NCBI RefSeq assembly: GCF_038397775.1 | Contig: NZ_CP151650.1 | Coordinates: forward strand, 2,170,001 to 2,234,000 | Origin: Pseudomonas sp. RC10 | GTDB taxonomy: Bacteria; Pseudomonadota; Gammaproteobacteria; Pseudomonadales; Pseudomonadaceae | Reading direction: 5' to 3' | Length of the DNA stretch: 64,000 nucleotides | Part shown: positions 1-13,075 of the stretch, piece by piece | Numbering within the stretch: the first letter of the stretch is position 1 | Layout of the letters: each line of letters starts with the position of its first letter | Made by a program: the position numbers and the translations under genes | The notes under the pieces: model-generated | Seen by the model: only the letters and a program-made list of their open reading frames with translations | Database searches by the model: none | What the model was told of the DNA's origin: nothing

Positions 1-2
1 GG

Positions 3-986
3 ATTGGCCGTGCCATGGACGCCCCCGGTGCCGCATTGACCACCTGGATGGGCAACGACCACGTCATCGGTTACCCCGAAGATTATGTGATGCGCCGGGA
101 CATTCACCCCAGCGATTACATCGGTGAATTTGTCGCCAAACGCTGGCCGAGTGCGCGACGCATCGGTTACGAGTCCGACAGCTATTTCTTCTCGCCACGC
201 TCGCTGAACAGCCTGATCGCCAAACTGCCGAACGGCGTGTTCGTGGACTGCGATCTGCTCGTCAACCGCGCGCGGGTGGTGAAGAGCGAGACCGAGATTC
301 AGTACCACCGCGAAGCCGCCACGATCGTTCAAGGCGCCATGCACGTCGCTCAGGACATGATCCAACCGGGCGTACGCCAGTCCGACGTCATCGCGGAAAT
401 CTACAAAGCCCAGATCGCGCCCGACGCGCCGTTTGGCGGCGACATCACCGCCCTGTGCCCGATCATTCTGGCGGGAGAGAAAGCCTCTGCCGCGCACCCG
501 GCGTGGACCGATGAGAAGTTCATCGACAACCAGACCGTGGCCATCGAACTGGCCGGCGCTCGCCGCCACTACACCACCGGCCTTGCGCGCACACTGCACT
601 TGGGGTCGAACCCGCCTGACGAACTGACCCACACCGCTGCGGCGGTCGAGGAGGGCATGAGCGAAGTGCTGGCGATGGTCAAGACCGGGGTCAGTGGAGC
701 GGACATTCACGCCAGTTGGCAGCAGGTGCTGAACCGCTACGGGCTGCGCAAGGACAGCCGCATCGGTTACTCGATCGGGATCGGCCTGCCACCGGATTGG
801 GGCGAGCACGTCATCAGCCTGCGTCCGGGCGAGCACGAGCCGATCGAGACGAACACCACGCTGCACATCATCCTCGGCATGTGGATGAAGGGCTGGGGCA
901 TGGAAACGTCGGAAACCATTGTTGTGCAGCCACAGGGTTATGAGTGCCTGACCCAGTTCCCGCGCAGCGTCAACATCAAGCGTTAA
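3..986 (+). CDS. M24-family ectoine hydrolase-like protein (EutD/DoeA type), 5' end cut by window
   Basis: Creatinase-fold (M24, pita-bread) enzyme. The first ATG is at 15, but the frame is open to the window edge and about 325 residues are visible against roughly 390-400 for the family, so the N-terminus is probably missing. Residues WMGNDHVIGYP and RIGYESDSYFF near the start and GEHVISLRPGE and FPRS near the end recall ectoine hydrolase EutD/DoeA. The usual dinuclear-metal aspartates are replaced (IELAGARRHYTTGLART where metallopeptidases have two Asp), as I recall for EutD and creatinase. The expected reaction would be ring opening of ectoine or a related cyclic amidine. It lies 68 bases before an amino-acid-type ABC importer on the same strand, and ehu-like and ectC-like genes follow 4-9 kb downstream, which supports the reading. 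A plain Xaa-Pro dipeptidase is less likely because the metal ligands are absent. Confidence 0.65.
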   Translation: MGRAMDAPGAALTTWMGNDHVIGYPEDYVMRRDIHPSDYIGEFVAKRWPSARRIGYESDSYFFSPRSLNSLIAKLPNGVFVDCDLLVNRARVVKSETEIQYHREAATIVQGAMHVAQDMIQPGVRQSDVIAEIYKAQIAPDAPFGGDITALCPIILAGEKASAAHPAWTDEKFIDNQTVAIELAGARRHYTTGLARTLHLGSNPPDELTHTAAAVEEGMSEVLAMVKTGVSGADIHASWQQVLNRYGLRKDSRIGYSIGIGLPPDWGEHVISLRPGEHEPIETNTTLHIILGMWMKGWGMETSETIVVQPQGYECLTQFPRSVNIKR

Positions 987-1004
987 TACCTTAAGTTGTC
1001 GATG

Positions 1005-1025
1005 GCGGCCCTGCATCGGGGCCGC
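1005..1025 (+). terminator. Intercistronic hairpin after the M24 gene
   Basis: Perfect 7-bp GC-rich stem (1005-1011 with 1019-1025) and a 7-base loop, 19 bases after the M24 stop. No T-run follows, so it may be an attenuator or an mRNA-stabilising hairpin rather than a full terminator. Confidence 0.4.
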
Positions 1026-1054
1026 ACTCTAATAATAAAAGTGTGGGGAGTGCC

Positions 1055-1888
1055 ATGAAAACAATCTCAAGCATGGTGTGTGCGTTCGCCTGCGTTTTGG
1101 GTATGACCGCAACTAACGTTAATGCGGCGGCTGAAACGTCGCTTCAAAAGAACACATTGTCCGTGGGCGCGGATTTGAACTACCCGCCTTACGATTATTT
1201 CGTGGATGGCAAACCGGCGGGGTTTGATCCATCGTTATTGGCGCTGTTGGCCAAGAAGATGAATGTTGAACTCACGTTCTCGGACACGCGTTTCGCCAGT
1301 TTATTGTTGGGCCTTAAATCCAATCGCTTCGACCTGGCATCGGCAGGTATGTACGTCACGCCTGAGCGGGCACAACAGATCAACTTTCTGCCGTACATGA
1401 AAACCGGTGTGTCGTTCGTGGTGCTGAAAGGTAGCGCGAATCAACCCATGACACCGGCCGATCTGTGCGGCTTGCGAGTGAGCAGTATCCAGGGCGCGGC
1501 GTGGATTCCCAAGCTCACCGAGTTTTCGAAAACCGGCTGCGTGGATCAAGGCAAGGCGCCGATCAAGTTGTCCGAGTTCCCGTCCTCGGCGGAAGCGGTG
1601 CAGACGCTCTTCGCCAAGACCGCAGACGTTCAGACAGAAGACGCGGCTGTTGCAGCTGTGGCCGTCAAGAACACGTCCGGACGCATCGAAATCAGTTCGA
1701 AGGAAATCCTCTACCCGGTCGTGGGCGGTTACGGCCTTCGCAAGGACAACCAAGTGTTGTTGGCCGCGATGACCAAAGCCCTTCAAGCCATCAAGAATTC
1801 GGGCGAATACGCGGCGCTGTTAAAGGAATACAACTTGGGTGAGCCCTCTAAGGAAGAGATAGCGGCTGCCATGGGCACCGCCAACTAA
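1055..1888 (+). CDS. Amino-acid-type ABC transporter substrate-binding protein (family 3)
   Basis: Periplasmic binding protein of the polar amino acid family (SBP_bac_3), 277 residues. The ATG at 1055 is preceded by GGGGAG at 1045-1050; an in-frame GTG at 1043 lies in that ribosome site and is rejected. A Sec signal peptide with cleavage near VNAAA is visible. The first lobe begins with [15 protein letters not shown] and [14 protein letters not shown], followed by [17 protein letters not shown], all typical of the family. It lies 34 bases before a fused permease-ATPase gene and should deliver its ligand to it. The ligand is unknown; the EutD-like gene upstream suggests an ectoine-like or modified amino acid solute. 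Confidence 0.85.
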
Positions 1889-1922
1889 GACCTACTGTTA
1901 TTACAATAAAAAGGTGGCTCAA

Positions 1923-3428
1923 GTGGAATTTGACGTGCGCTATGCGATCAGTCTTCTGTGGAATCGCGAGTTTTGGAGCGCCACACTGCTGGTCGTTGAA
2001 CTCAGTATGCTGGCCTGGTTATCCGGCATTGTCTTTGGCTTCTTTCTGGCGTTGGGCAAGTCGTCAAAAATCGTCTGGGTGAAACAACTGTGCAGCGGTT
2101 ATATCTGGTTCTTCCGCAGTTTGCCGCTGCTGGTGCTGTTGATTCTGATCTATAACCTGCCGCAAGTGTTTCCCGAAACCGGGGCCGTGCTGTCCAACCC
2201 GTTTCTGGCGGGCTTGATCGGGATGGTGTTGAACGAATCGGCGTACATCGCTGAAATCCATCGCAGCGGGCTGGTGGCGATTCCCAAGGGGCAGGGCGAA
2301 GCGGGCAGGTCGCTGGGGCTGGGAAGACTGGCGCTGCAAAGCCGGATCATCATTCCCCAGACCATTCGGGTGACGCTGCCTGCGCTGGCGAACGAGTACG
2401 TCAACATCGTCAAGCTCACGTCGCTCGTTTCGGTGATTTCGTTGTATGAAATCCTCGCGGTCGGGCAGCGCCTGTACACCCAGAACTTCCGGGTGCTGGA
2501 GACCATGCTCGGCGTCGCGTTCTACTACGTGTTCATCGTCACCGTGGTGGGCTGGCTGCTGTCGTACCTGGAGCGTCGGCTGGACTTCACGGCGGCCAAA
2601 AACACCGCACCCACGTCGGGCCCTTCTCCTGCGCTGGGTGTATTGCCTGCGCGTGAGTCGGCCACCGGCGAGACGGCGCTGGAGATCGTCGGGGCGAAGA
2701 AAAGCTACGGCAGTCTGGAAGTGTTGAAGGGCATCGAACTGAGCATCAAGCGCGGGCAAGTGGTGTCGATCATCGGGCCGTCGGGTTCGGGCAAGACCTC
2801 GCTGATTCGCGCCATGAACGGGCTTGAGCCTCTGGACAGCGGCAAGGTGTTGCTGCACGGCAAACCGTTCCTGGACGCCGACGCGGGGAAGGTCGTGCCG
2901 TCGCTGGATCAGGCGGTGGACATCGGCATGGTGTTCCAGAACTTCAACTTGTTCCCGCACAAGACCGTGCTGGAAAACGTGACCTTGGCGCCGGCCTATC
3001 ACAAGCGTGGTTCGAAGGCGGCGTGCGAAGGATCGGCCCGCGCCATCCTGCAGAAAGTCGGCTTGAGCGAGCATGTGCACAAGTACCCGCATCAACTGTC
3101 CGGTGGGCAGCAACAGCGGGTCGCGATTGCCCGGGCCATGGCGATGCAGCCTTCGATGATCCTGTTCGACGAGCCGACCTCGGCGCTGGACCCTGAGCTG
3201 GTCGGTGACGTGCTGCGCTGCATCGAGGACCTGGCAAGTGAAGGCATGACCATGGTCATCGTCACCCACGAAATGGAGTTCGCGTTCAAAGTGTCGGACC
3301 GGGTGATCTTCATGGAGCAAGGCGTGGTGGTCAAAGACGCCTCACCGGCGGACATGATGCGGTCTTCGGATCAGCGCATCACCCGGTTCATCGGCAACTC
3401 GGAGCATTTCAAACTTCGGGCGGTGTGA
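1923..3428 (+). CDS. Fused amino acid ABC transporter permease/ATP-binding protein
   Basis: Single polypeptide of about 501 residues combining both inner-membrane functions of a polar amino acid importer. The N-terminal half (about 1-220) is a HisM-type permease with the EAA loop near [20 protein letters not shown]. The C-terminal half (about 250-495) is an ABC ATPase with Walker [10 protein letters not shown], signature LSGGQQQR, Walker [13 protein letters not shown] and the switch His in VTHEMEF. I prefer the GTG at 1923, which has AGGTGG 5 bases upstream, over the in-frame GTG at 1914 inside that site. The two domains probably give a homodimeric transporter with one permease and one ATPase per chain, served by the upstream binding protein. 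Fusions of this kind are known but less common than separate subunits. Confidence 0.87.
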
Positions 3429-3458
3429 GGGTGTAGCGCAGTGTCAGGTGCAGATGGG

Positions 3459-3643
3459 TTGCCTGACACTCCGCGTTCGCTGCCGTCATACCTCCGGCGT
3501 CTCCCACAGGAATGTTGGTGCGCCGTGATTTCCGTGATCGACACGCGTACAGCGATCCGAAGTGAACACTGGATTGAGTATGGACGCCGTTCTAGTGGGA
3601 GACGCCGGAGGTACGACGGCAGCGAAGACAGAGTGTCAGGCAA
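3459..3643. repeat. Long imperfect inverted repeat (49-bp arms)
   Basis: Arms at 3459-3507 and 3595-3643 are reverse complements at 45 of 49 positions, with an 87-base centre. The octamer GTGTCAGG or its complement recurs near both ends (3441, 3462, 3633), giving small nested inverted repeats. It lies in the convergent gap between the fused ABC gene and the MocR gene. It could be a paired REP/BIME-like element, a MITE remnant, or a bidirectional terminator. I see no transposase. Confidence 0.8.
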
Positions 3644-3671
3644 ATGATTGCATCTGACACGCCAGCCATCG

Positions 3672-3691
3672 CGGGAGCGGAGCCCGTCCCG
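3672..3691 (-). terminator. Possible hairpin downstream of the MocR gene
   Basis: CGGGAGCGG pairs imperfectly (one bulge) with CCGTCCCG about 36-56 bases beyond the MocR stop. No T-run is seen, so a terminator role is only possible. Confidence 0.25.
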
Positions 3692-3727
3692 TCGCGCCTC
3701 GGCATGTACGGGCGGAACCAGGCAGTG

Positions 3728-5149
3728 CTAAACCATTGCCTGATAAAACGCCAACGGCTGATCGAGAATGTCGCGCAGTCGTTTCAGACCTTCTTCAAGC
3801 ATCTGCCGGTTGTCGGCGGCACCCAGGGAGATGCGCACCGATTCACTGGGCCTGTGACCCGATGCCGGGGAAAAGCTCGACGCGGGCAGCAGCTTGATGT
3901 GTTGGCGTTCTGCCTGATGGGCGAAATCCAGCGCCTGCCACGGCTGTGGAAGGTGCAGCCAGATGTGCGAACCCTGGGGCGGTGCGCTGAAGTTCAGGTC
4001 GGCGAACACCTGACCTGCGATCAGCAGTCGTGCCGCGTTTTCGGCGCGGATGGCCTGGGTCAGGTTTTGCAGGATGCCGTTGTCGATCCACTGCGAGGCG
4101 AGCTCAGCGAACAACGGCGAGACCATCATGGTCATCGCCTGCATCAAGCCCGCGATCTCTTGTGCGCTGCGAATGTCAGGCGCGCACAGATAAGCAAGGC
4201 GCAGCGCCGGTGTAGCGCATTTGGAGAGGGTCGCGATGTGCCACGTGAGTTCAGGGGCCAGCTGTGCCAGGGACGTCAGCCCGTTGGCGGCGATGTTGGA
4301 ATAGGGGTCGTCCTCGATGAGGGTGACGCGGTGGCGGCGGGCGATCTCGGCAATTTTCAGGCGTCGCGCTTCCGGCAACGTCGCCGTCGTCGGGTTATCG
4401 ATATTCGGGACCACATACAACGCCATGAGCGCGTGCCGTTGGCAGGCCTGCTCGAAGTCTTCAGGGATCAGCCCTTCGGCGTCCATGGAGACAGGCACCA
4501 GGTCCAGGCCCAGTTGCCGGGCAACGGTGTGAATGCCGGGGTAGCAGAACTGCCCCACGGCCAGCGACCGCGAAGTGCGGCTCAACAGATGGCAGATCGC
4601 GAACAGCGCGCTCTGGGCGCCGGAGGTGAGGATCACGCGGTCGGCGCTGATCTGCTCGATCCGTTGCGTCAGCCAGGAGGCCCCAGCGACGCGGTGGCGC
4701 AGGTTTCCCCCGGTTTCCTGATAGTTGAAGCTGGCGACGTCGCCGATGGTTGCGAACGCCCGGCCCATCTCCTTGACGATCAGTGCATTGATTTCCTGGC
4801 CTTCGGTGCGGGGCGGGCTGTTCTTGCTCAGGTCCAGCATCGGCGCTTCGAGGGTGGTCGGGAAGGAGGTGCGAGTTTCTCCTGCCACGCAGGTGCCGCT
4901 GCCTGTGCGGGTTTCGATGAGGCCATCGTCCCGCGCCATCCCATACGCCTTGGTCACGGTGGTCAGGTCGACCCCCAGTAGCTTGGCTAGCGTGCGTTGG
5001 GGCGGCAGGGAATCGCCTGGCTGCAGTCGGCCGTTTTCAATGTCGGCAACGATGGCCTGGTAGATGCCGAGGTATTTGAAAGAGGCCGTGAGGTCGAGCC
5101 ATGCATTCCATTGTCGGCGCGTTGAAGGACGGGGTTCGGAGATGGGCAT
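3728..5149 (-). CDS. MocR-type GntR/aminotransferase transcriptional regulator (EnuR-like by context)
   Basis: MocR-family regulator of 473 residues: an N-terminal winged-helix GntR domain (about 25-90, with LPPQRTLAKLLGVDLTTVT) joined to a fold-type I aminotransferase domain (about 110-470). The PLP-binding lysine is probably Lys310 in ATLSKCATPALRL, and the Asp in IEDDPYS near 280 would contact the PLP ring. Such proteins use PLP as a ligand sensor and usually control a neighbouring operon. The gene is divergent from ehuB, with 208 bases between starts. EnuR, the ectoine-uptake and catabolism regulator, belongs to this family, so an EnuR-like role is a reasonable inference; orthology is unproven. 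GabR, PdxR and TauR are the main alternatives. Confidence 0.85.
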   Translation of the reverse strand: MPISEPRPSTRRQWNAWLDLTASFKYLGIYQAIVADIENGRLQPGDSLPPQRTLAKLLGVDLTTVTKAYGMARDDGLIETRTGSGTCVAGETRTSFPTTLEAPMLDLSKNSPPRTEGQEINALIVKEMGRAFATIGDVASFNYQETGGNLRHRVAGASWLTQRIEQISADRVILTSGAQSALFAICHLLSRTSRSLAVGQFCYPGIHTVARQLGLDLVPVSMDAEGLIPEDFEQACQRHALMALYVVPNIDNPTTATLPEARRLKIAEIARRHRVTLIEDDPYSNIAANGLTSLAQLAPELTWHIATLSKCATPALRLAYLCAPDIRSAQEIAGLMQAMTMMVSPLFAELASQWIDNGILQNLTQAIRAENAARLLIAGQVFADLNFSAPPQGSHIWLHLPQPWQALDFAHQAERQHIKLLPASSFSPASGHRPSESVRISLGAADNRQMLEEGLKRLRDILDQPLAFYQAMV

Positions 5150-5168
5150 CAGACAGGTAGACCGTATT

Positions 5169-5323
5169 GTATGGTTTCGGCCTGAATGTATGGGTAAAAC
5201 GACTGTTATTCAACCGGAAGTTATTGTTTCTGCGGTGCAGATGCCGATAACGGCCCCCTATCGAAGAAAAAAGGCATACATTCATAATTATTAGATATTA
5301 AGTGTATGGTTTTTTGTATGGTA
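5169..5323 (+). promoter_or_regulatory. Four GTATGG direct repeats in the MocR/ehuB divergent region
   Basis: GTATGG occurs at 5169, 5188, 5304 and 5316, all in the same orientation: two near the regulator start and two 12 bp apart close to the ehuB ribosome site. GTATGGTTT is exact at 5169-5177 and 5304-5312. MocR regulators usually bind direct repeats, so these are candidate operators. No strong -35/-10 pair is evident. Confidence 0.45.
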
Positions 5324-5357
5324 GTTTTTCACCATCATTAGGGGAGGAGGAAATACA

Positions 5358-6212
5358 ATGCTGCGCTCAATGTTGGTGGGTCTCACGTTAGGTTTGTCGT
5401 TGGTGTCAGTCGCTCATGCGGATGATTTGCTGGACGCAGTCAAGGCCGGGAAGCCGGTCAGGGTCGGCTTTGCCGAGCAGGAGCCGTTTATCGTCAGTGG
5501 CCCCAACGGCAAGCTGGTGGGGTATGAAGCGGATCTGCTGAAGGCGGTGCTGGCGAAGTTTGGCAACAGCCAGCTTGAAGCGGTGCCCACCCAGTTCGGC
5601 GCACTGATCCCCGGTTTGCAGGCCCGTCGGTTCGACGTGATCGCGTCCGACCTCTACATCCGTCCGGACCGCTGCAAACTCGTGGCGTTCGCCGAACCGA
5701 CGCACATCGTCAATGACGGGATCGTCGTGAAGGCGGGTAACCCCAAGGGCATTCGCAGCTATGCGGACATCGCCAAGGACCCGTCCCTCAAGGTCGGTTA
5801 CCTCACGGGCGGTGGCCCCATCGCCGACCACGCACTGGCCGCCGGTGTAAAGGCCGAGCAACTGGTCACGCTGCCTGACGTTGCTTCGCTGTTCGCCGCC
5901 GTGAAGACCGGTCGCATCGATGCGTTTCTGAACACGGCGGTGACGGTTGCTGCCACGTTGAAAACCGCGAACGATCCGGGCCTGGAGCGCGTTCAACCGT
6001 TCGCCCAGGCCGTGATCAACGGCAAGCCTGCGTCAGGGATTGGCAGCTTCGCGTTCCGCCGCGAGAACCAGGCCTTTGTCGATGCGTTCAACACGTACCT
6101 GCAGGAAATCCTCACGTCCGGTGAAGCCGCGAAAATCGGTCAGCCTTATGGCTTCTCTGCGGAAGACATCCCGACCGGTGATGTGAAACTGGCAAGCCTC
6201 TGTGCTGAATGA
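5358..6212 (+). CDS. ehuB: Ectoine/hydroxyectoine ABC transporter substrate-binding protein EhuB-like
   Basis: Periplasmic solute-binding protein of 284 residues with a Sec signal peptide (cleavage near SVAHA/DD). The ATG is preceded by GGGGAGGAGG at 5341-5350. Segments resembling EhuB as I recall it are FGALIPGLQARRFDVIAS, a double-Cys pair (RPDRCKLVAF and the C-terminal SLCAE) and the terminal PYGFSAEDIP. Its role would be to capture ectoine or a close analogue in the periplasm and hand it to the EhuC/EhuD permeases encoded just downstream. The order B-C-D-A and the ectC-like gene in the same operon support the assignment. The ligand may still be another cyclic or cationic amino acid. Confidence 0.75.
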   Translation: MLRSMLVGLTLGLSLVSVAHADDLLDAVKAGKPVRVGFAEQEPFIVSGPNGKLVGYEADLLKAVLAKFGNSQLEAVPTQFGALIPGLQARRFDVIASDLYIRPDRCKLVAFAEPTHIVNDGIVVKAGNPKGIRSYADIAKDPSLKVGYLTGGGPIADHALAAGVKAEQLVTLPDVASLFAAVKTGRIDAFLNTAVTVAATLKTANDPGLERVQPFAQAVINGKPASGIGSFAFRRENQAFVDAFNTYLQEILTSGEAAKIGQPYGFSAEDIPTGDVKLASLCAE

Positions 6213-6230
6213 CAGCTGAATGACACAGGC

Positions 6231-6252
6231 GGGGCGCCTTTGAGGGCGCTCC
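6231..6252 (+). terminator. Hairpin between ehuB and ehuC
   Basis: An 8-bp GC-rich stem (6231-6238 with 6245-6252, one G-T pair) and loop TTTGAG, 18 bases past the ehuB stop. Such hairpins often let a binding-protein message accumulate above the permease message. Only GTTTGG follows, so full termination is unlikely. Confidence 0.5.
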
Positions 6253-6272
6253 GTTTGGATGGGAAACGTTTC

Positions 6273-6935
6273 ATGGAAATGGTCTGGGAATACCGCTACG
6301 AATTTTTGACCGGGCTCTGGTGGACGATCCGCCTGACGGTAGTATCAGCAATCCTCGCGCTGGTACTGGCACTCGTCGCGGGGTTGGCCCGGTCGTCGCA
6401 CAGGCGTTGGCTGAATGTCCCGGCGGCGTTGTACGTCGAGTTCTTTCGCGGCACGTCAGCCTTGGCTCAGCTGTTCTGGCTGTTCTACGTGTTGCCGTAT
6501 CTGGGGGTCGACCTCACGCCATTTCAATGTGGCGTGGTGGGCCTCGGTTTGTGCTTCAGCGCCTACGGGGCGGAAGTGGTGCGGACCTGTATCGAAGCCG
6601 TTCCCAAGGGGCAGCTCGATGCGGCCGCTGCGCTGAACCTCGGGCGCTTCAACACCCTCCGGGTGGTGGTGTTGCCCGAGGCGCTGATCATGATGATGCC
6701 GCTGTTCAACAACCTGCTGATCGAACTGATCAAAGCGACGTCGCTGGTATCGCTGATCACCATTCCAGACCTTGCGTTTCAAGCGAAATCCATCATCTCC
6801 AAGACCTATCAGTCGGGTGCGGTCTTGTTGGCGACGCTGGTGATGTACCTGCTCATTTCGCTGCTGGTGTCCTCGTCGATGCGCAAGCTGGAAGGCGTGC
6901 TGGCCCGTGGGCGAAACGCGAGGAGTGAGGCATGA
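6273..6935 (+). CDS. ehuC: Ectoine/hydroxyectoine-type ABC transporter permease EhuC-like
   Basis: HisM/GlnP-type inner-membrane permease of about 220 residues with roughly five membrane segments. The frame opens earlier (TTG 6240), but the ATG at 6273 starts just before the first hydrophobic helix and avoids the hairpin. The segments FFRGTSALAQLFWLFYVLPYLGV, given in part as YVEFFRGTSA and LFWLFYVLP, and the EAA loop EAVPKGQLDAAAALNLG are as I recall in EhuC. It forms a heterodimeric channel with EhuD. The stop overlaps the next start (ATGA at 6932), showing translational coupling. Confidence 0.75.
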   Translation: MEMVWEYRYEFLTGLWWTIRLTVVSAILALVLALVAGLARSSHRRWLNVPAALYVEFFRGTSALAQLFWLFYVLPYLGVDLTPFQCGVVGLGLCFSAYGAEVVRTCIEAVPKGQLDAAAALNLGRFNTLRVVVLPEALIMMMPLFNNLLIELIKATSLVSLITIPDLAFQAKSIISKTYQSGAVLLATLVMYLLISLLVSSSMRKLEGVLARGRNARSEA

Positions 6936-7597
6936 CGATGGATTTTTCCTGGTCGTTCGCCGCACAGATCGCACCCACGCTCGCCAATGGCGCAGGGGTG
7001 GCGTTCGTCGCGGCCATTGGCGGGTTTGCCGCGGCACTGGTGGCGGGCGGGATTCTCGCCACGCTGCAACGCTCGGGTCATCGCGGGTGTGTGTGGGCAG
7101 GGCGCGGGTTGATGGAATTACTGCGGTCCACCCCATTGCTGATTCAGGTCTACTTCCTGTTTTTCGTATTGCCGCAGATGGGCATCGTGCTCAACCCGGT
7201 AGCCACCGGTGTTGTCGCGCTGGGGCTGTATCACGGCGCCTATGTCGCCGAAGCGTATCGCGCGGTGCTGGAAAGTCTGCCTTCCGGGCAATGGGACGCC
7301 AGTGACAGCCTGCGCTTCAGCCGCTACCAGGCGTATCGCCACCTGATGCTGCCCCAGCTGATACAACCGCTGACGCCTGCCTTGGGCAATACCTTCATCA
7401 CGATGCTCAAGGACACGCCGATTCTGGCGGCGGTGTCCGTCCCGGAATTGATGTTCGCGGCCAATGATGTGGGGGCGCAGAGCTTCCGTTATGTCGAGCC
7501 GATCACCCTCGCTGCACTGGCCTATCTGGCCATGAGCGCGGTCGCGGCCCTGTTTGTATTCGTGTTGCGTCGCTGGACGCAGAGTCGTCATCAATGA
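6932..7597 (+). CDS. ehuD: Ectoine/hydroxyectoine-type ABC transporter permease EhuD-like
   Basis: Second HisM-type permease, 221 residues, about five membrane helices. It has AGGAG (6921-6925) upstream and shares 4 bases with ehuC and 4 with ehuA. The segment LMELLRSTPLLIQVYFLFFV, the EAA loop ESLPSGQWDASDSL and the C-terminal FRYVEPITLAALAYL resemble EhuD. It should pair with EhuC and dock the EhuA ATPase through the EAA loop. Confidence 0.75.
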   Translation: MTMDFSWSFAAQIAPTLANGAGVAFVAAIGGFAAALVAGGILATLQRSGHRGCVWAGRGLMELLRSTPLLIQVYFLFFVLPQMGIVLNPVATGVVALGLYHGAYVAEAYRAVLESLPSGQWDASDSLRFSRYQAYRHLMLPQLIQPLTPALGNTFITMLKDTPILAAVSVPELMFAANDVGAQSFRYVEPITLAALAYLAMSAVAALFVFVLRRWTQSRHQ

Positions 7598-8364
7598 CTG
7601 AAATGATTTCGTTTGAAAACGTCAGCAAACGCTTCGGCAAGACCGTGGTGCTGGACCAGTTCAGCTTCAGCCTGAATCGCGGCGACAAGGTCGCGATCAT
7701 CGGCCCCAGCGGTTCGGGCAAGTCCACGTTGCTGCGCATCCTCATGGCGCTGGAAGGCATCGACAGCGGCAAGGTGTCGCTCGATGGCGAAGCGCTCTGG
7801 CATGCCGCCGAGGGCAAGCCTTTGATCGCGCCCACCCGCAAGCACCTGCAACGCATGCGTTCGTTGGTGGGCATGGTGTTCCAGAGCTTCAATCTGTTTC
7901 CGCACCTGACTGCCCTCGACAACGTCGCCACGGCACCGCGTCTGGTATTAGGCCTCTCCCGTCACGACGCGGAGCAGCGAGCACGTGCGCTGTTGGAGCA
8001 GGTCGGTCTGGGCGAAAAGCTCAGCCACTACCCCTCCACCTTGTCCGGCGGCCAGCAGCAACGGGTGGCAATTGCCAGGGCGATGGCGCTGGAACCGAAG
8101 ATCATGCTGTTCGATGAAGCCACCTCGGCGCTGGACCCGGAGCGGGTCGGAGAGGTGCTGGAAGTCATGCGCGCACTGGCCCATGAGCGGGACCTGACGA
8201 TTATCGTCGTCACCCACCAGATTGGTGTGGCGAGGGCGATTGCCGACCGCATCTGCTTCATGGAGAACGGCAAGATCGTCGAGCAAGGGGCGCCTGGCCC
8301 TCTGCTGGATTCGCCACAGAATGATCGCACCCGGGCTTTTTTGCGGGCGGTGCACCTTGAGTAA
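7594..8364 (+). CDS. ehuA: Ectoine/hydroxyectoine-type ABC transporter ATP-binding protein EhuA-like
   Basis: ABC ATPase of 256 residues of the polar amino acid class. Walker A is GPSGSGKST (about 37-45), the Q-loop is VFQSFNLFPH, the signature is LSGGQQQR, Walker B is IMLFDEATSALD and the switch His is in VVTHQIG. Its start overlaps the ehuD stop by 4 bases. It would energise the EhuBCD importer. ATPases of this class are hard to tell apart, so the Ehu name rests on operon context. Confidence 0.78.
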   Translation: MTEMISFENVSKRFGKTVVLDQFSFSLNRGDKVAIIGPSGSGKSTLLRILMALEGIDSGKVSLDGEALWHAAEGKPLIAPTRKHLQRMRSLVGMVFQSFNLFPHLTALDNVATAPRLVLGLSRHDAEQRARALLEQVGLGEKLSHYPSTLSGGQQQRVAIARAMALEPKIMLFDEATSALDPERVGEVLEVMRALAHERDLTIIVVTHQIGVARAIADRICFMENGKIVEQGAPGPLLDSPQNDRTRAFLRAVHLE

Positions 8365-8404
8365 CGCCGCTGGTTCAGGCGCCACTGACACGCGAGGAAT
8401 GTTC

Positions 8405-9700
8405 ATGTCTTTCAGCAAGCACGTCGCCGCCCAGGCCGTGGCGGTCGCGCGGCACCGTGATCAGTCCGGGACTGGTATTTTGCGCGACCGTTTTTTGCAA
8501 GCTCAACAGCAAGCGGGCGCGTGGGACACCCTGAGCGGGTTTGGCATCGTGCCGCCGCTGAGCGGGCTGACGCTGGCGGTCAAAGCCTGTTTCGATGTGC
8601 GCGGCTGGCCGACCACCGCAGGCTCCCGGGTGCTGGCCAACGCATCGCCGGCCTCGGCTGACGCCCCGCTGGTCGCGGCGTTGAGCCAGTTGGGCGCGGT
8701 GATCACCACGCAAACCAACATGACCGAGTTTGCTTTCGGGGCGTTGGGGTTGAATCCTCATTTCGGCACGCCGGTCACGCCACTGGACGCGACCGGTCAG
8801 CGCATCGCCGGAGGCTCGACCTCGGGCGGCGCGGTCGCCGTGGCGTCAGGCCTTGCAGACATCGCACTGGGCAGCGACACCAGCGGCTCCGTGCGGATCC
8901 CGGCAGCGTTCTGCGGCGTGACAGGCTTCAAGCCGAGCAAGGGGCGTTATCGCGACGACGGCATGCTCTTCCTGTCGCCGACGTTCGACGTTCCGGGTTT
9001 CATCGCCAAGGACGTCGAGACGCTGCTGCGGGTCGATCAGGCGCTGGTGCCCGATGAGTCGGCCCTGCATGCTGTGCCCCTGCGCGGTCGCCGGTTTCTG
9101 GTGCCCCCGACGTTTGCTTTGGCCCACGCCGACGCGGCCGTCACCGAACACTTTCACGCCGCGATCGCACGGCTCAGAAGCGCGGGCGCCGAGGTGATCG
9201 AGCAAGAGTGGCCCGAGCTCGCGGACTTCGGTGAAATCGCCATTGAGGGCGGCATCATCATTGCTGAGGCCTTCACCTGGCACCGCGAGTTCCTGCAAGA
9301 CCGCGCGCACCTCTACGACCCGAGAGTCGGGCCACGCATTGCCCTGGGCGAGCGGGTCACTGCCAGCGCCTACTTTGCCTCGCAGCAAAAACTGACGCAG
9401 TGCAAGACCGATTACGCACAGCGCATGAGCGATTACGACGCGCTCCTCACGCCGACGGTGCCTTTCCTGCCGCCTACACTCAGCGAGCTTGAAGACGACC
9501 CGACCTACTACCGTAAAAATCGCCTGACGTTCCGCCTGACCGAAGTCGCCAACCGGATCGACGCCCCGAGCGTGAGCCTCCCGGCGGCAACCTCAGAACC
9601 CATCGGCCTCTGCCTGACCGGCCACCGTGACGGCGACCGTGCGTTGTTGCACCTGGCCCGGTCGGTCCAGACGGCCCTGCATCTTGAACCCCTGACATGA
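8405..9700 (+). CDS. Amidase signature family amidohydrolase
   Basis: Amidase signature enzyme of 431 residues. The Ser-cisSer-Lys triad is visible: Lys60 in LAVKACFDV, cis-Ser138 in AGGSTSGG and nucleophile Ser162 in GSDTSGSVRIP. The ATG at 8405 is preferred because GAGG lies 7 bases upstream; the ATG at 8399 touches that site and the frame's upstream extension overlaps ehuA. It would hydrolyse a C-N amide bond. It lies 40 bases after ehuA and 10 before ectC. In this operon it may act on an acyl-amide produced from the imported solute, for example an N-acyl diaminobutyrate or a ring-opened amidine; that is inference. Substrate specificity in this family cannot be read from sequence. Confidence 0.85.
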   Translation: MSFSKHVAAQAVAVARHRDQSGTGILRDRFLQAQQQAGAWDTLSGFGIVPPLSGLTLAVKACFDVRGWPTTAGSRVLANASPASADAPLVAALSQLGAVITTQTNMTEFAFGALGLNPHFGTPVTPLDATGQRIAGGSTSGGAVAVASGLADIALGSDTSGSVRIPAAFCGVTGFKPSKGRYRDDGMLFLSPTFDVPGFIAKDVETLLRVDQALVPDESALHAVPLRGRRFLVPPTFALAHADAAVTEHFHAAIARLRSAGAEVIEQEWPELADFGEIAIEGGIIIAEAFTWHREFLQDRAHLYDPRVGPRIALGERVTASAYFASQQKLTQCKTDYAQRMSDYDALLTPTVPFLPPTLSELEDDPTYYRKNRLTFRLTEVANRIDAPSVSLPAATSEPIGLCLTGHRDGDRALLHLARSVQTALHLEPLT

Positions 9701-9710
9701 GAGAACACCC

Positions 9711-10097
9711 ATGATCGTGCGCACCCTGGAACAGCTCGCTCAAACCGGCAGTCACGTCGTCACCGAGAAATGGCGCAGCACCCGCCTGATCGTCAAGTCC
9801 GATGGTCTGGGCTATTCGGTGCATCACACCGTGGTGCCCGAAGGCAACGCCGTTCATTGCCATTACAAAAACCACTACGAGACCAATTACTGCATTGCCG
9901 GGGAAGGCGAGGTATTGCACGTGGAGAGTGGCGAGACCTTCCCGATCCGGGTGGGCACCACCTACGCACTGGACCAGCACGACGAACACATCCTCAAGGC
10001 GACCAAGGGCGACCTGCACCTGGTGTGCGTGTTCAATCCGCCGATCCAGGGCAATGAAACCCACAACGCCGACGGCGGCTACGATGCCGCCAGTTGA
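9711..10097 (+). CDS. ectC: Solitary ectoine synthase EctC (cupin)
   Basis: Ectoine synthase homologue of 128 residues, the usual EctC length, starting MIVRTLE as in many EctC proteins. The iron ligands known from EctC structures are at the same numbers: Glu57, Tyr85 and His93. Trp21, Arg25 and Thr40 are also retained, and the C-terminal VCVFNPP and GNETH follow the family. EctC closes N-gamma-acetyl-diaminobutyrate to ectoine, with some reverse hydrolysis, and can cyclise glutamine to ADPC. There is no ectA, ectB or ectD in the window, so this is an orphan ectC within an uptake operon. It may use an imported precursor or work on a related substrate. Orphan ectC genes are known in some non-producers. 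The protein looks intact. Confidence 0.93.
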   Translation: MIVRTLEQLAQTGSHVVTEKWRSTRLIVKSDGLGYSVHHTVVPEGNAVHCHYKNHYETNYCIAGEGEVLHVESGETFPIRVGTTYALDQHDEHILKATKGDLHLVCVFNPPIQGNETHNADGGYDAAS

Positions 10098-10126
10098 GCC
10101 TCTGACGTTTCAGTGAGGGTTTTCGG

Positions 10127-11230
10127 GTGGTCAACTACACCGATTATTTCAGCGCCTCCTACGAGGTCGCCCGGCGCACGTTTCGCAACGCCGTAAAGGC
10201 GGTCGACGGCGAACTGAGCGCCTATCTGCACCCGGATGCCAGAGGCGCTCACGGGGAAGAGCTGACGATCGATGTCGGGCACATCGGGCGGATCGACGCG
10301 CCTCGGCAATTGATCATGATCAGCGGCACCCACGGCCTCGAAGGGTTCGCGGGCTCGGCGTTGCAGATCGGCTGGCTCAAACAGTTGAGTGCGCGGGCAC
10401 TTAATGACGAGGTCGGTGTGCTGCTGATTCATGGGCTTAACCCCTATGGTTTTTCCCACGGTTCGCGGACCACGGTGAACGGCGTGGACCTCAATCGCAA
10501 TTTCATCGACCACACCGCCGTGCCGGTGACGAATGCGCTGTACGCGCAGCTCCATCCGTATCTGTTGCCGCAGTGGTGGGACGATAACTACCGCTCGGCC
10601 TGCGACATCGGGATCATGGATTTTCGGCTCAAATACGGCGATGACGTGTACTTCAACACCTTCGCGGGTGGGCAATACCTGTACCCCCAGGGCACTTGCT
10701 TCGGCGGGTTTTCACGTGAGTGGGAAAGCCTGACACTGGAGCGCGTGGTGCAGACCGCTGTGGGACATGCCGAGCGCGTGGCCGTCATCGATTGGCACAC
10801 GGGCATTGGTGAATACGGCAAGCCGTTCTACCTGAATTTCGGCAGCGACAGCTCCGACGCCCAACGGCAAACAGCCGATTGGTGGGGGCTGGACACGGTG
10901 ACGGGATCACGCCCCCATGGCCGTGCCCGACCGCGCTACCAGGGGCTGGTGTTTCAGGGGATCGAATCGTTTTTGCCCCAGGCCATCGTGGCCGGGGGTG
11001 TGATCGAGTTCGGGACACGGGGTTCGGTGGCGGGCGACCTCGCCATTCGCCAGGACCTGTGGCTGCGCAATTACGGCCACCGCCTCAGCGAAGACACGCG
11101 TACTCAGATGCACGCGGACCTGCTCGACTCACTCAACCCTGTCTCCTACCAATGGCGCGAACAGGTGTTGACTCTCGGGCTGCCGATCATTGACGCCACC
11201 CTCGATGGGCTGGCGCGTTGGCAGGCCTGA
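10127..11230 (+). CDS. DUF2817 family M14-like zinc metallohydrolase
   Basis: Protein of 367 residues matching DUF2817, a family with a zinc carboxypeptidase/aspartoacylase-like fold. A metal site can be read: His69 and Glu72 in SGTHGLEG and His224 in VIDWHTG. VNGVDLNRNF near 117-126 is the M14-style substrate loop, and GGVIEFGTRG near 290 may hold the catalytic Glu. The GTG start at 10127 has GAGG about 9 bases upstream. It sits 29 bases after ectC. EutE/DoeB, which deacetylates N-acetyl-diaminobutyrate in ectoine catabolism, is from the related AspA family, so this protein could be its functional stand-in. That is inference; no substrate has been assigned from sequence. Confidence 0.8.
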   Translation: MVNYTDYFSASYEVARRTFRNAVKAVDGELSAYLHPDARGAHGEELTIDVGHIGRIDAPRQLIMISGTHGLEGFAGSALQIGWLKQLSARALNDEVGVLLIHGLNPYGFSHGSRTTVNGVDLNRNFIDHTAVPVTNALYAQLHPYLLPQWWDDNYRSACDIGIMDFRLKYGDDVYFNTFAGGQYLYPQGTCFGGFSREWESLTLERVVQTAVGHAERVAVIDWHTGIGEYGKPFYLNFGSDSSDAQRQTADWWGLDTVTGSRPHGRARPRYQGLVFQGIESFLPQAIVAGGVIEFGTRGSVAGDLAIRQDLWLRNYGHRLSEDTRTQMHADLLDSLNPVSYQWREQVLTLGLPIIDATLDGLARWQA

Positions 11231-11252
11231 ACCCATTCAAAGGAGCAAGCTC

Positions 11253-12116
11253 ATGAGCGTCAACTTTCTACTGGATCACCTGGTCATCGCGGTTAACGAC
11301 CTGCCTCGCGCGATTGAAGATTATCGGCAACTGGGGTTTCAGGTTCTCGTCGGTGGCCGCCATCAACACGCGCCGACGCAAAATGCGTTGGTGTACTTTC
11401 TCGATGGCACGTACCTGGAGCTGATCGAGTGGACCGCGCCCGCGCCGGGTGAAAAGTGGTACGAACGCCTGACCCGGCACGGCGAGGGCTTCGTGGATGT
11501 GGCGTTCGTGCCGTCGAACATCGGCCAGGCCGTCGCCAACGCCGCCGCTACGGGCGTTCAGTACCGTGGGCCTATCGACGGCTCGCGGGTCAAACCGACG
11601 GGTGAGCATGTGCAGTGGCAGCTGGCCTGGCCCGCGCTGCATGGCCTGCCGTTTTTGTGCGGTGACGTGACGCCGCGTTCGTTGCGGGTGCCGGAGGGCG
11701 AGGTGCGTGTGCAGCCGAATCGCGCCACCGGGATTCAGTCGATTGCGATTGCGGTCGATGATCTGCAGGCGAGCACACAGGCCTATCGCGGGTTGTTGGG
11801 AGACGAGGCTGAGGTGGGTGCTGAAGACACGTCGCTGACCGACACGCAGGGCGTGGTGGTGAGGACGTTGCACGTCGGGGAGGCCGCGCTGCATCTGGTA
11901 TCGCCTGTCGGTTCGATCAACACCGGGCTGAGCGAGCGCTTGTCGACGCTGCTGAAAACCCGTGGAGAGGGCGTCTATGCGATGTCCATCGCCGGGATCG
12001 AACCGGGAATTTCAGCGCAGACGGTTGCGCAATTCAGCCACGGTGTCACCCTCAGCGTCGCGGATCGGAACCTGACGCTGCTCGAACAGATCACCCCCTT
12101 GTCCCACGAGGGCTGA
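11253..12116 (+). CDS. VOC family protein with glyoxalase-like domain
   Basis: About 287 residues. The N-terminus (LLDHLVIAVNDLPRAIEDY) is a VOC/glyoxalase module and a second module begins near residue 145 (IQSIAIAVDDLQASTQAYRG). It resembles the glyoxalase-like group that acts on varied small substrates. The ATG at 11253 has AAAGGAG upstream; the longer frame from 11190 overlaps the DUF2817 gene and is not used. It is the last gene of the ehu-ectC operon. Its reaction is unknown; metal-dependent isomerisation or ring opening is possible. Confidence 0.8.
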   Translation: MSVNFLLDHLVIAVNDLPRAIEDYRQLGFQVLVGGRHQHAPTQNALVYFLDGTYLELIEWTAPAPGEKWYERLTRHGEGFVDVAFVPSNIGQAVANAAATGVQYRGPIDGSRVKPTGEHVQWQLAWPALHGLPFLCGDVTPRSLRVPEGEVRVQPNRATGIQSIAIAVDDLQASTQAYRGLLGDEAEVGAEDTSLTDTQGVVVRTLHVGEAALHLVSPVGSINTGLSERLSTLLKTRGEGVYAMSIAGIEPGISAQTVAQFSHGVTLSVADRNLTLLEQITPLSHEG

Positions 12117-12132
12117 CGGAGTCGAACAACGT

Positions 12133-12155
12133 CTGAGTGACCGGTCACCGCTCAG
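12133..12155 (+). terminator. Palindromic hairpin after the ehu-ectC operon
   Basis: Contains the perfect 12-bp palindrome GTGACCGGTCAC (12137-12148), flanked by CTGAG and CTCAG. TCGTTT follows. It may end the operon or act as an operator for rarD, which starts 33 bases later. Confidence 0.4.
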
Positions 12156-12187
12156 TCGTTTCATAACAAGGCCGGAAAGGATTACTG

Positions 12188-13075
12188 ATGCAAACTGCCG
12201 TCAACCCGCGCAAGGGCTACCTGTTGGGCCTGAGCGCGTATTTCATGTGGGGCTTCATCCCGCTGTACTTCAAAGCTGTCGAAAGCGTGCCCGCTGTGGA
12301 AATCATCATCCACCGCGTGCTGTGGTCGGCCCTGTTCGGCTCGCTGATGCTGCTGATCTGGAAACACCCTGGCTGGGGGCGCGAGCTCCTGCAGAACCCG
12401 CGTCGGCTGGGTGTGCTGGCGGTGAGTGGGTGCCTGATCGCAACCAACTGGCTGGTCTACGTCTGGGCCGTGAACCATGGTCGGATGCTGGAGGCGAGCC
12501 TGGGGTATTACATCAACCCTCTGATCAACGTCTTGCTCGGCATGTTGCTGATGGGCGAACGCCTGCGCCGCTTGCAATGGGTGGCGGTGGGGTTGGCATC
12601 CATTGGCGTCGGGCAGCAGGTTTGGCAGGTCGGCAGCTTGCCATGGGTGTCGCTGGCACTGGCCCTCTCGTTCGGCTTCTACGGGCTGATTCGCAAGCGT
12701 GCTCCGGTGGCCGCGCTGCCGGGTCTGGTGGTCGAAACCTGGCTGCTGGTGCCGTTGGCGTTGGCCTGGGTGGCCTTTCATCCGGAATCCGACAGCTTTC
12801 AGCCCGCCTTTCTGCTCAGTCATGACGTGCTCTGGTTGACCCTCGCGGGGCTGATCACGCTCATTCCATTGCTGTGTTTCAACGCCGCCGCGCGGCACCT
12901 GCCGTATTCGACGCTGGGCTTTCTGCAATACCTCGCGCCAACGCTGGTGCTGATCCTGGCCGTGACGCTGTTCGGCGAAGTCCTGGCGCCCGCGACGCTG
13001 ACGGCGTTCGTGTTCATCTGGCTGGGGCTGTTGGTGTACAGCGTGGATACGTGGAGGCAATTGCGCAAACAGTGA
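12188..13075 (+). CDS. rarD: RarD, EamA/DMT-family transporter
   Basis: Inner-membrane protein of 295 residues with about ten hydrophobic segments, the length and organisation of RarD in the drug/metabolite transporter superfamily. The start KGYLLGLSAYFMWGFIPLYF and the following EIIIHRVLWS are characteristic. Its substrate is unclear, and the name comes from a chloramphenicol-sensitivity link. It follows the VOC gene by 71 bases with a palindrome between, so it may be a separate unit. Confidence 0.9.
   Translation: MQTAVNPRKGYLLGLSAYFMWGFIPLYFKAVESVPAVEIIIHRVLWSALFGSLMLLIWKHPGWGRELLQNPRRLGVLAVSGCLIATNWLVYVWAVNHGRMLEASLGYYINPLINVLLGMLLMGERLRRLQWVAVGLASIGVGQQVWQVGSLPWVSLALALSFGFYGLIRKRAPVAALPGLVVETWLLVPLALAWVAFHPESDSFQPAFLLSHDVLWLTLAGLITLIPLLCFNAAARHLPYSTLGFLQYLAPTLVLILAVTLFGEVLAPATLTAFVFIWLGLLVYSVDTWRQLRKQ

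Follow-up and report, generated by a model that had tools for sequence, protein, structure and literature searches.

Two gene systems abut within a 64,000-nucleotide stretch of the Pseudomonas sp. RC10 genome (contig NZ_CP151650.1; hereafter the window): a sub-threshold doe-like cluster on the side of an M24 hydrolase gene, and an operon with the order MocR-EhuBCDA-amidase-EctC-DUF2817-VOC (Table 1). The operon most likely processes something similar to ectoine by means other than the DoeA/DoeB route. We put at roughly 45% the probability that the region from 5358 to 12116 forms a catabolic operon under MocR control that serves a small carboxylated cyclic amidine resembling ectoine, probably not ectoine itself, with EctC opening the ring and the amidase carrying out the deacylation.

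Results

Table 1. Features at the junction of the two gene systems, with positions in the window.
Feature	Position	Strand	Basis and remarks
DoeA/EutD-like M24 hydrolase, 3' part	1..986	+	5' end cut by window edge; member of doe-like cluster
Family-3 solute-binding protein, second importer (doe-like side)	1043..1888	+	PF00497; no more than 75 bits with the EhuB model (cut-off 190.9)
Fused permease-ATPase, second importer	1914..3428	+	PF00528 and PF00005 in a single protein
REP/REPIN-like inverted repeat	3459..3643	no strand	Between the two gene groups; 54-nt arms, 89% complementary
MocR/GabR-type regulator	3728..5149	-	Divergent from operon; best model EhuR (NF052286), 366 bits, cut-off 480
Four TGTATGG repeats, predicted MocR operators	5168..5321	+	MocR-EhuB intergenic region
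EhuB-like periplasmic binding protein	5358..6212	+	TIGR02995, 242.2 bits, cut-off 190.9
EhuC-like permease (start codon uncertain)	6240..6935	+	TIGR03004, 230.1 bits, cut-off 197.0
EhuD-like permease	6932..7597	+	TIGR03003, 221.0 bits, cut-off 205.2
EhuA-like ATPase	7594..8364	+	TIGR03005, 358.4 bits, cut-off 345.4
Amidase-signature amidase	8399..9700	+	PF01425, 244.8 bits; ends 10 bp ahead of EctC
Orphan EctC-type cupin	9711..10097	+	NF009806, 171.0 bits, cut-off 128; PF06339 also matched
DUF2817 hydrolase, zinc-carboxypeptidase (M14) fold	10127..11230	+	Pfam match
VOC/glyoxalase-fold protein	11253..12116	+	PF13468, 114.8 bits

As shown in Table 1, all four importer subunits score above the NCBIfam cut-offs for the ectoine importer, EhuD and EhuA by narrow margins, and EctC is above its own, which bears out the complete EhuB-C-D-A order and the intact EctC given in the preliminary description of this DNA. 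The amidase, DUF2817 and VOC genes that it named are confirmed by Pfam matches, its MocR regulator is best matched by the EhuR model, though below the cut-off, and the absence of ectA and ectB that it noted extends to the whole genome, in which the profile search found neither over cut-off. Its statement that eutE/doeB is missing is not supported, because the window edge hid a DoeB/EutE-like gene whose end lies some 240 bp ahead of the window (375.7 bits, below the TIGR02994 cut-off of 402.7).

This gene lies a short way upstream of the M24 gene together with its neighbours, which encode a PRK07482-type aminotransferase (782 bits against a cut-off of 687), an SSADH-like dehydrogenase (592 bits against 646) and an Lrp/AsnC regulator. 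The M24 gene starts about 200 bp ahead of the window, the exact start codon being tentative, and the whole protein reaches 367.9 bits, below the TIGR02993 (DoeA) cut-off of 613. In the M24 tree, from which we removed duplicates, six loci of this same genome and any row with less than 60 bits or 60% coverage, the protein falls outside the eut/doe clade as a sister group. The M24, EutE-like, aminotransferase and dehydrogenase genes form a separate, doe-like system. In the fetched flanks of 34 related EctC loci, of which the SLFW contig breaks on the side in question, neither relatives of the window M24 or EutE-like protein (at least 45% identity) nor DoeA/DoeB relatives (at least 50%) were found near EctC. 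An M24 protein directly follows EctC in Kaistia (L023), but it is of another kind (83.6 bits with the DoeA model; 23% identical to the window M24 protein). The M24 protein was rejected as a partner of EctC because it belongs to the doe-like cluster, has no such relatives in the 34 loci and lies on the side where the TGTATGG repeat is absent. The joint ectoine-like route proposed earlier keeps its importer-plus-hydrolase operon around an orphan EctC and loses its M24 member.

The second importer, on the doe-like side, had been overlooked in the preliminary description. Its fused permease-ATPase is 52-60% like those adjoining amidase-EctC in Burkholderia, Achromobacter and Shinella (its tree was built from 11 of 24 rows). 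Copies that are equally close or closer are present in 64 plasmid records, with Klebsiella accounting for many (54-62% among the 20 listed); the likeness was thus not used as evidence, and the second importer was dropped as a bridge between both systems. The REP/REPIN-like repeat has 147 partial matches in the genome.

The MocR regulator lies outside the EnuR clade and groups with other Ehu/EctC-linked MocR proteins in a clade of their own. TGTATGG occurs in seven copies in the window, four of them within the MocR-EhuB intergenic region, and is absent from the 12 kb in which the doe-like cluster lies; CCATACA is present in all six MocR-Ehu intergenic regions compared. Judged from this distribution, the repeats are candidate operators to which MocR may bind. 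The EnuR/EutR operator ATTGT-N6-ACAAT was not found within two mismatches in the window, the best intergenic site having 3 mismatches in 10, and a scan of 3300-12400 for sigma-70 promoters found none.

EhuB falls in a clade separate from the eut/doe EhuB proteins, with support of 100/100 and a stem of 1.42. The tree holds 27 of the 42 rows found and four outgroup rows, two rows being identical (L089 and L121); the eut/doe proteins compared are not themselves one clade, since two changes are needed on this tree, where long branches meet. The rows of the EhuB, M24, MocR and permease-ATPase trees were trimmed to the last 300 to 530 residues. Among the positions E21, F24, Y60, F80 and R85, which we take to be the ligand residues of EhuB, F24 and R85 are kept, Y60 is replaced by F and F80 by Y, and E21 is Q in all seven rows of the clade. 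The preliminary description had made its proposal depend on whether EhuB and the M24 protein belong to the ectoine clades; both fall outside the characterised ones, so that ectoine itself becomes less likely as the compound handled, while something like ectoine does not. Because all four subunits pass the ectoine models, the ligand may still be ectoine.

Ten residues bind iron, substrate or product in solved EctC, and the window protein keeps nine of them (W21, S23, R25, T40, Y52, E57, Y85, H93 and F108); two of the 34 amidase-linked rows have F in place of W21. At the remaining position, 38, the window protein has H, as do 5/5 ectABC-type proteins compared, so a specificity change at this position was rejected, although N38 is present in the crystallised enzyme of P. 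lautus. Position 59, close to the metal ligand E57, is N in 42/42 rows of the clade and V in the ectABC type. In the tree, this clade is separate from the ectABC proteins; EctC, EhuB and MocR are thus all set apart from ectABC or eut/doe proteins, each in a clade of its own. One protein labelled as AMP-ligase type (L055, with neighbour genes outside the context scan) falls among the ectABC proteins, which leaves nine rather than ten in the AMP-ligase group, and L136, in which ectB and ectC alone are annotated, was counted as ectABC type.

In 28 of the 34 related loci an amidase gene lies directly upstream of EctC, the spacing being -14 to +61 bp, an arrangement that is not due to chance. Five relatives lack it, and one further contig is too short to judge. 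The scan started from proteins closely related to the window EctC, so the proportion describes this clade rather than all orphan EctC proteins, and 17 of the 34 loci are from Burkholderia and Achromobacter and not independent. The pairing is also present in five of the six plasmid loci fetched for this clade, spans Proteobacteria and Actinomycetota, and is found in none of 15 loci of other EctC types; for these controls, two fragments (L063, L064) and two weak matches (L065, L066), which yielded no EctC row fit for use, were left out of the 12 loci around Pseudomonas EctC matches. Import genes adjoin the pair, either EhuBCDA or a binding protein with a fused permease-ATPase (the latter in 21/34 loci), and a DUF1989 gene, which matches urea amidolyase associated proteins below threshold, is present in 20/34. 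The solved structures nearest to the window amidase are a 'probable amidase' and then biuret hydrolase. A literature search found no published account linking an amidase to orphan EctC.

Pseudomonas RIT-PI-q, Kaistia and two Rhizobium plasmids share the order MocR-EhuBCDA-amidase-EctC, and Neorhizobium has it with ehuB in another place. The operon is complete in RIT-PI-q, whose best matches to DoeA and DoeB reach 55 and 22 bits at most. The recurrence across Pseudomonas that had been raised earlier holds for this strain, but the operon is rare: EctC matches were found in 13 of 149 sampled Pseudomonas genomes, a collection other than that of SLFW and RIT-PI-q. Besides the present genome, these comprise eight near-full-length proteins of other EctC types (45-49% identity), two fragments (53-60% over about 40 residues, type tentative) and two weak matches.

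The DUF2817 and VOC genes occur together in just 2 of the 34 loci, from near strains of one genus, and in Caballeronia; the VOC gene follows the DUF2817 gene in L022 and in Caballeronia L071 too. The AstE/AspA-family chains 3fmc and 3lwu appear in the Foldseek list for DUF2817, and in a second structure comparison M14 carboxypeptidases head the list, with no AstE/AspA chain among the 50 entries listed. The window protein has no AstE_AspA (PF24827) match, and its homologue P0134 reaches 28.9 bits (cut-off 25). The case for DUF2817 as a DoeB stand-in by homology is therefore weak, the profile match being confined to the homologue and M14 folds being nearest.

Discussion

The operon resembles the EhuABCD-EutABCDE/DoeABCD systems of Sinorhizobium, Halomonas and Pseudomonas (L121-L123) in having an Ehu-type importer divergent from MocR together with hydrolases, but it contains an amidase and EctC instead of DoeA and DoeB, its EhuB and MocR lie outside the eut/doe rows, and its operator-like repeat is different. 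Its EctC shares family and ligand residues with the ectoine synthase of ectABC, from which it differs in N59, the lack of ectAB and the upstream amidase. The AMP-ligase type, which is the 'ectoine-like 1' gene cluster of Pseudomonas in PMC8719888, likewise has EctC without ectAB, but its neighbours are AMP ligase, dehydrogenase-like and MFS genes, it carries C59 and G21, and no amidase lies upstream. The orphan EctC loci of Burkholderia and Achromobacter have the same EctC clade, an amidase directly upstream and an adjoining ABC importer; they carry a fused permease-ATPase, a GntR regulator and DUF1989 where the window has MocR, Ehu and DUF2817.

The hydrolase families and the MocR regulator fit catabolism. 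In the proposed mechanism, EhuBCDA would import the cyclic amidine, EctC would act in the hydrolytic direction to give a linear omega-N-acyl amino acid, and the adjoining amidase would strip the acyl group and so pull the EctC reaction. The DUF2817 protein, as an M14-fold zinc hydrolase, and the VOC protein may act on a substituent or in a later step. PMC5924519 describes hydrolysis of homoectoine and DHMICA by the EctC of H. elongata, with an ADPC equilibrium in favour of glutamine.

If the substrate were ectoine, EctC would run synthesis in reverse to N-gamma-acetyl-DABA and the amidase would replace DoeB. This Doe-independent route, named as a possibility in PMC3187862, agrees with the importer scores, and the amidase could pull the unfavourable equilibrium; we nevertheless consider it rather unlikely, as ectoine hydrolysis by H. 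elongata EctC is given as negligible or below detection in PMC5924519 and PMC3187862, EhuB is in its separate clade with Q fixed at position 21, and the operon itself has no aminotransferase or dehydrogenase to carry DABA on. EctC and the amidase might also be helpers of the adjoining doe-like cluster that clear N-gamma-acetyl-DABA as a by-product of DoeA. The alpha and gamma isomers are formed in a ratio of 2:1 by H. elongata DoeA (PMC3187862). Gamma-ADABA also turned up, unexpectedly, in ectoine-grown R. pomeroyi, and DoeA is above cut-off elsewhere in the genome in 3 of 15 searched pair-carrying genomes, some of them drafts. Six of the 15 have no DoeA above 56 bits, however, and with doe-like adjacency in none of the 34 loci and the repeat absent from the doe-like side, a helper role is very improbable.

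A synthetic EctC, closing an imported N-acyl diamino acid to an ectoine-like protectant with the amidase in regulation or recycling, would agree with the intact ligand residues. As reported in PMC5924519, a P. syringae strain with orphan EctC made ectoine after the addition of leaves of the host plant, and the ectC of this strain could complement a mutant of H. elongata, but supplied gamma-ADABA gave no ectoine, and that review deems the data not conclusive. The type common in other Pseudomonas, taken to be that of P. syringae, is a different clade in another context. Linear amides would not be expected to survive the amidase and DUF2817 hydrolases, and the MocR-importer-hydrolase layout is like that of catabolic clusters, so synthesis appears unlikely. 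Still less probable is that the cupin has left amidine chemistry for an unrelated reaction in the catabolism of amino acids or urea-like compounds: N59 close to the metal ligand, the DUF1989 genes with their urea amidolyase associated matches, and the closeness of the amidase to biuret and allophanate hydrolases would agree with this, but the iron and substrate residues of ectoine synthase are kept.

Solitary proteins account for 145 of 582 EctC-type proteins in complete genomes, and their function is called unresolved in PMC5924519 and PMC6344544. The amidase coupling, the adjoining importers and the clade-specific residues make the role of orphan EctC concretely testable. It is possible, and put forward here tentatively, that a whole clade of orphan EctC proteins consists of ring-opening hydrolases paired with an amidase, in a widespread, horizontally moving pathway for a putative cyclic amidine amino acid that would not need DoeA or DoeB. 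If true, some EctC proteins would serve breakdown rather than synthesis, and genes of this kind that are annotated for ectoine in Burkholderia, Achromobacter and Rhizobium would have to be reannotated.

Organization of the Operon

The window covers bases 2170001-2234000 within a single contig of 6,711,602 bases, and of the named relatives in the set searched, Pseudomonas sp. SLFW is the closest (EctC 99%). The coordinates and start sites give gene gaps of at most 34 bp and a 4-bp overlap at two junctions, so that 5358-12116 reads as one operon.

Features of the operon and of the neighboring doe-like cluster (unprefixed coordinates refer to the window; G000:C1, RC10 contig; L002, fetched stretch)
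Feature	Position	Strand	Assignment
MocR	3728-5149	minus, divergent from operon	best model EhuR, below cut-off
EhuB, EhuC, EhuD, EhuA	5358-8364		over NCBIfam cut-offs
Amidase (PF01425)	between EhuA and EctC		Pfam
EctC	9711-10097		over NCBIfam cut-off
DUF2817 and Glyoxalase_3/VOC protein	3' of EctC		Pfam
doe-like cluster	G000:C1:2164852-2169758 (L002 4852-9758)		dehydrogenase, aminotransferase, Lrp regulator, EutE-like; runs on into window M24 gene and second importer
DoeB/EutE-like gene	just upstream of window		376 bits (cut-off 402.7)
PRK07482 aminotransferase	just upstream of window		782 (cut-off 687)
SSADH-like dehydrogenase	just upstream of window		592 (cut-off 646)
Lrp/AsnC regulator	just upstream of window

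Relation to the doe-like Cluster

The preliminary description had reported eutE/doeB as missing and had assigned the M24 protein to the EctC pathway. However, a DoeB/EutE-like gene is located just upstream of the window, and it was missed because the window begins inside the M24 gene. The gene content is similar to that of the Halomonas doeA, B, X, C, D set, as given in the available text of PMC3187862. Both ectoine-type hydrolases of the cluster score under the ectoine cut-offs. Compared with one Rhizobium eut cluster, the window M24 shares 42.5% identity with DoeA and the EutE-like protein 45.8% with DoeB; in three Pseudomonas ehu + eut/doe clusters, the identities to the same two proteins are 71-74% and 66-67%. 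In the tree, the window M24 lies outside all 8 eut/doe rows and groups (96/82) with Shinella and Roseateles M24 proteins from MocR-EutA-M24-M20 clusters. The lower identities and this tree position indicate a divergent doe-like cluster, which perhaps serves ectoine and perhaps does not. The supposed partnership of M24 with EctC thus dissolves, as M24 goes with the cluster upstream.

A REP/REPIN-like inverted repeat at 3459-3643, with 147 partial matches genome-wide, separates the two gene groups. In the MocR-EutA-M24-M20 clusters (L110 6737-11353 and L111 6666-11365; Roseateles, Shinella), the M24 proteins form a sister clade of DoeA, and an M20-family hydrolase occupies the place expected for DoeB.

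As regards INDEPENDENCE from Doe, DoeA was over the cut-off in 4 of the 21 genomes or records searched, and DoeB in 4 of 22. Fifteen whole genomes of the DoeA search carry the amidase-EctC pair; DoeA exceeded the cut-off in three of them (G155, G156, G164) and stayed below 56 bits in six (G150, G154, G158, G161, G162, G165), while DoeB gave 22 bits or no match in G150, G154 and G158. G150, Pseudomonas RIT-PI-q, holds the complete operon, including DUF2817 and VOC. Its lack of a DoeA match of at least 56 bits suggests that EctC there would not be recycling a DoeA by-product, unless the drafts hide the gene. A Doe-free reverse synthesis route is judged possible in the available text of PMC3187862.

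EctC, EhuB and MocR Clades

The amidase-linked EctC clade of 42 rows (34 with and 8 without the amidase) forms one group with a support of 100/94, apart from the ectABC and AMP-ligase-type proteins. Position 59, two residues past the metal ligand E57, is N in all 42 rows and in 36/36 rows of a database alignment, V in 5 ectABC-type rows and C in 9 AMP-ligase-type rows. If the strand is regular, residue 59 would share the orientation of E57 and point into the barrel. Nine of the ten ligand residues named in the accessible part of PMC6344544 are kept; position 38 is unlike that of P. lautus and the same as in the compared ectABC proteins.

A second orphan EctC type, with W21 replaced by G and C at position 59, occurs in other Pseudomonas (L056-L062) and on an Agrobacterium vitis plasmid (L070), where an MFS transporter lies 3' of EctC. 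In L058, AMP ligase, weakly methyltransferase-like and acyl-CoA-dehydrogenase-like proteins precede EctC; this type was published as 'ectoine-like 1', according to the available text of PMC8719888. On an Aliiroseovarius crassostreae plasmid (L135 5001-10340), EctC adjoins two ketoacyl synthases, an acyl-CoA dehydrogenase and an AMP-binding protein, possibly reflecting another biosynthetic role for EctC.

EhuB of the MocR-Ehu-EctC loci (7 rows, 6 loci) forms one clade (100/100, stem 1.42). In the structure work on EhuB, E21 of the S. meliloti protein is reported to contact the ectoine ring. At this position, located by residue counting along the 2q88 alignment, Q is found in 7/7 clade rows, E in 10/10 eut/doe rows, and E, Q and N in 8, 1 and 1 of 10 other rows. 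The EhuB cut-off was passed in 31 of 149 Pseudomonas genomes, 19 at 384-425 bits, RC10 at 242 and 11 others at 213-230, and this spread indicates that it covers more than one kind of protein. RC10 has a further EhuB-like protein (L115, G000:C1:3480752-3481555; 230.6 bits), which is accompanied by permeases and an ATPase of its own; the stretch fetched around it contains no EctC.

Six MocR rows form one clade, separate from six EnuR-type rows, and the Caballeronia MocR lies outside it. TGTATGG has seven copies in the 64 kb, four of them at 5168-5321, and none within the 12 kb holding the doe-like cluster. CCATACA is present in all six MocR-Ehu intergenic regions compared, with complete inverted repeats TTGTATG/CATACAA in L109 and L071. 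The EutR consensus, as quoted in the available text of PMC8739950, has no match at ≤2 mismatches in the window.

Distribution of the Amidase-EctC Pair

Genome contigs were scanned with an alignment of 34 close relatives of EctC, which yielded 34 loci. In 28 of the 34, an amidase lies on the same strand directly upstream of EctC, at a distance of -14 to +61 bp, a count that overstates independence because Burkholderia (9) and Achromobacter (8) supply 17 loci. It is absent next to EctC in L024, L026, L027, L036 and L053; the sixth, L052, has 477 bp of upstream sequence only, too little to tell. Five of six same-clade plasmid loci carry the pair (L068, L071, L109, L138, L139; not L069), and 0 of 15 loci of other EctC types have an amidase directly upstream. 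The pair occurs in Gamma-, Beta- and Alphaproteobacteria and in two Actinomycetota MAGs (L028, L029; Acidimicrobiales). The L028 pair is flanked by MgsA-type AAA ATPase and class II tRNA synthetase genes, and the stretch fetched there yielded no relative of either importer.

MocR, EhuBCDA, amidase and EctC occur together in the window, L021, L022, L023, L025, L068 and L109, with ehuB located apart in L025 (Neorhizobium). An alternative importer, a binding protein with a fused permease-ATPase, is found in 21 of the 34 loci, a GntR regulator in 22 and a DUF1989 gene in 20. Caballeronia plasmid p3 carries MocR, a different binding protein, amidase, EctC, DUF2817 and VOC. Plasmid typing gave conjugative for L068 and mobilizable for L071.

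Neorhizobium galegae (L025 9923-12398) has two EctC genes that face each other across genes for a flavodoxin-fold oxidoreductase and a RidA homologue. The oxidoreductase and RidA genes are also found after EctC on the plasmid of Rhizobium WYJ-E13 (L068). In Kaistia terrae (L023 10538-11692), an M24 of another kind (PepQ-like; DoeA model 83.6 bits) lies directly 3' of EctC, at the place of DUF2817.

The role of orphan EctC is called unresolved in the available parts of PMC5924519 and PMC6344544. Among the matches listed, titles and abstract beginnings of the literature on EctC and ectoine breakdown contain no description of the amidase-EctC unit, and EctC and amidase are both absent from the accessible main text of PMC13188858, on the evolution of ectoine catabolism. 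The orphan EctC within an import operon, proposed in the preliminary description, emerged stronger and more general, and the operon type is real, recurrent and made of known families.
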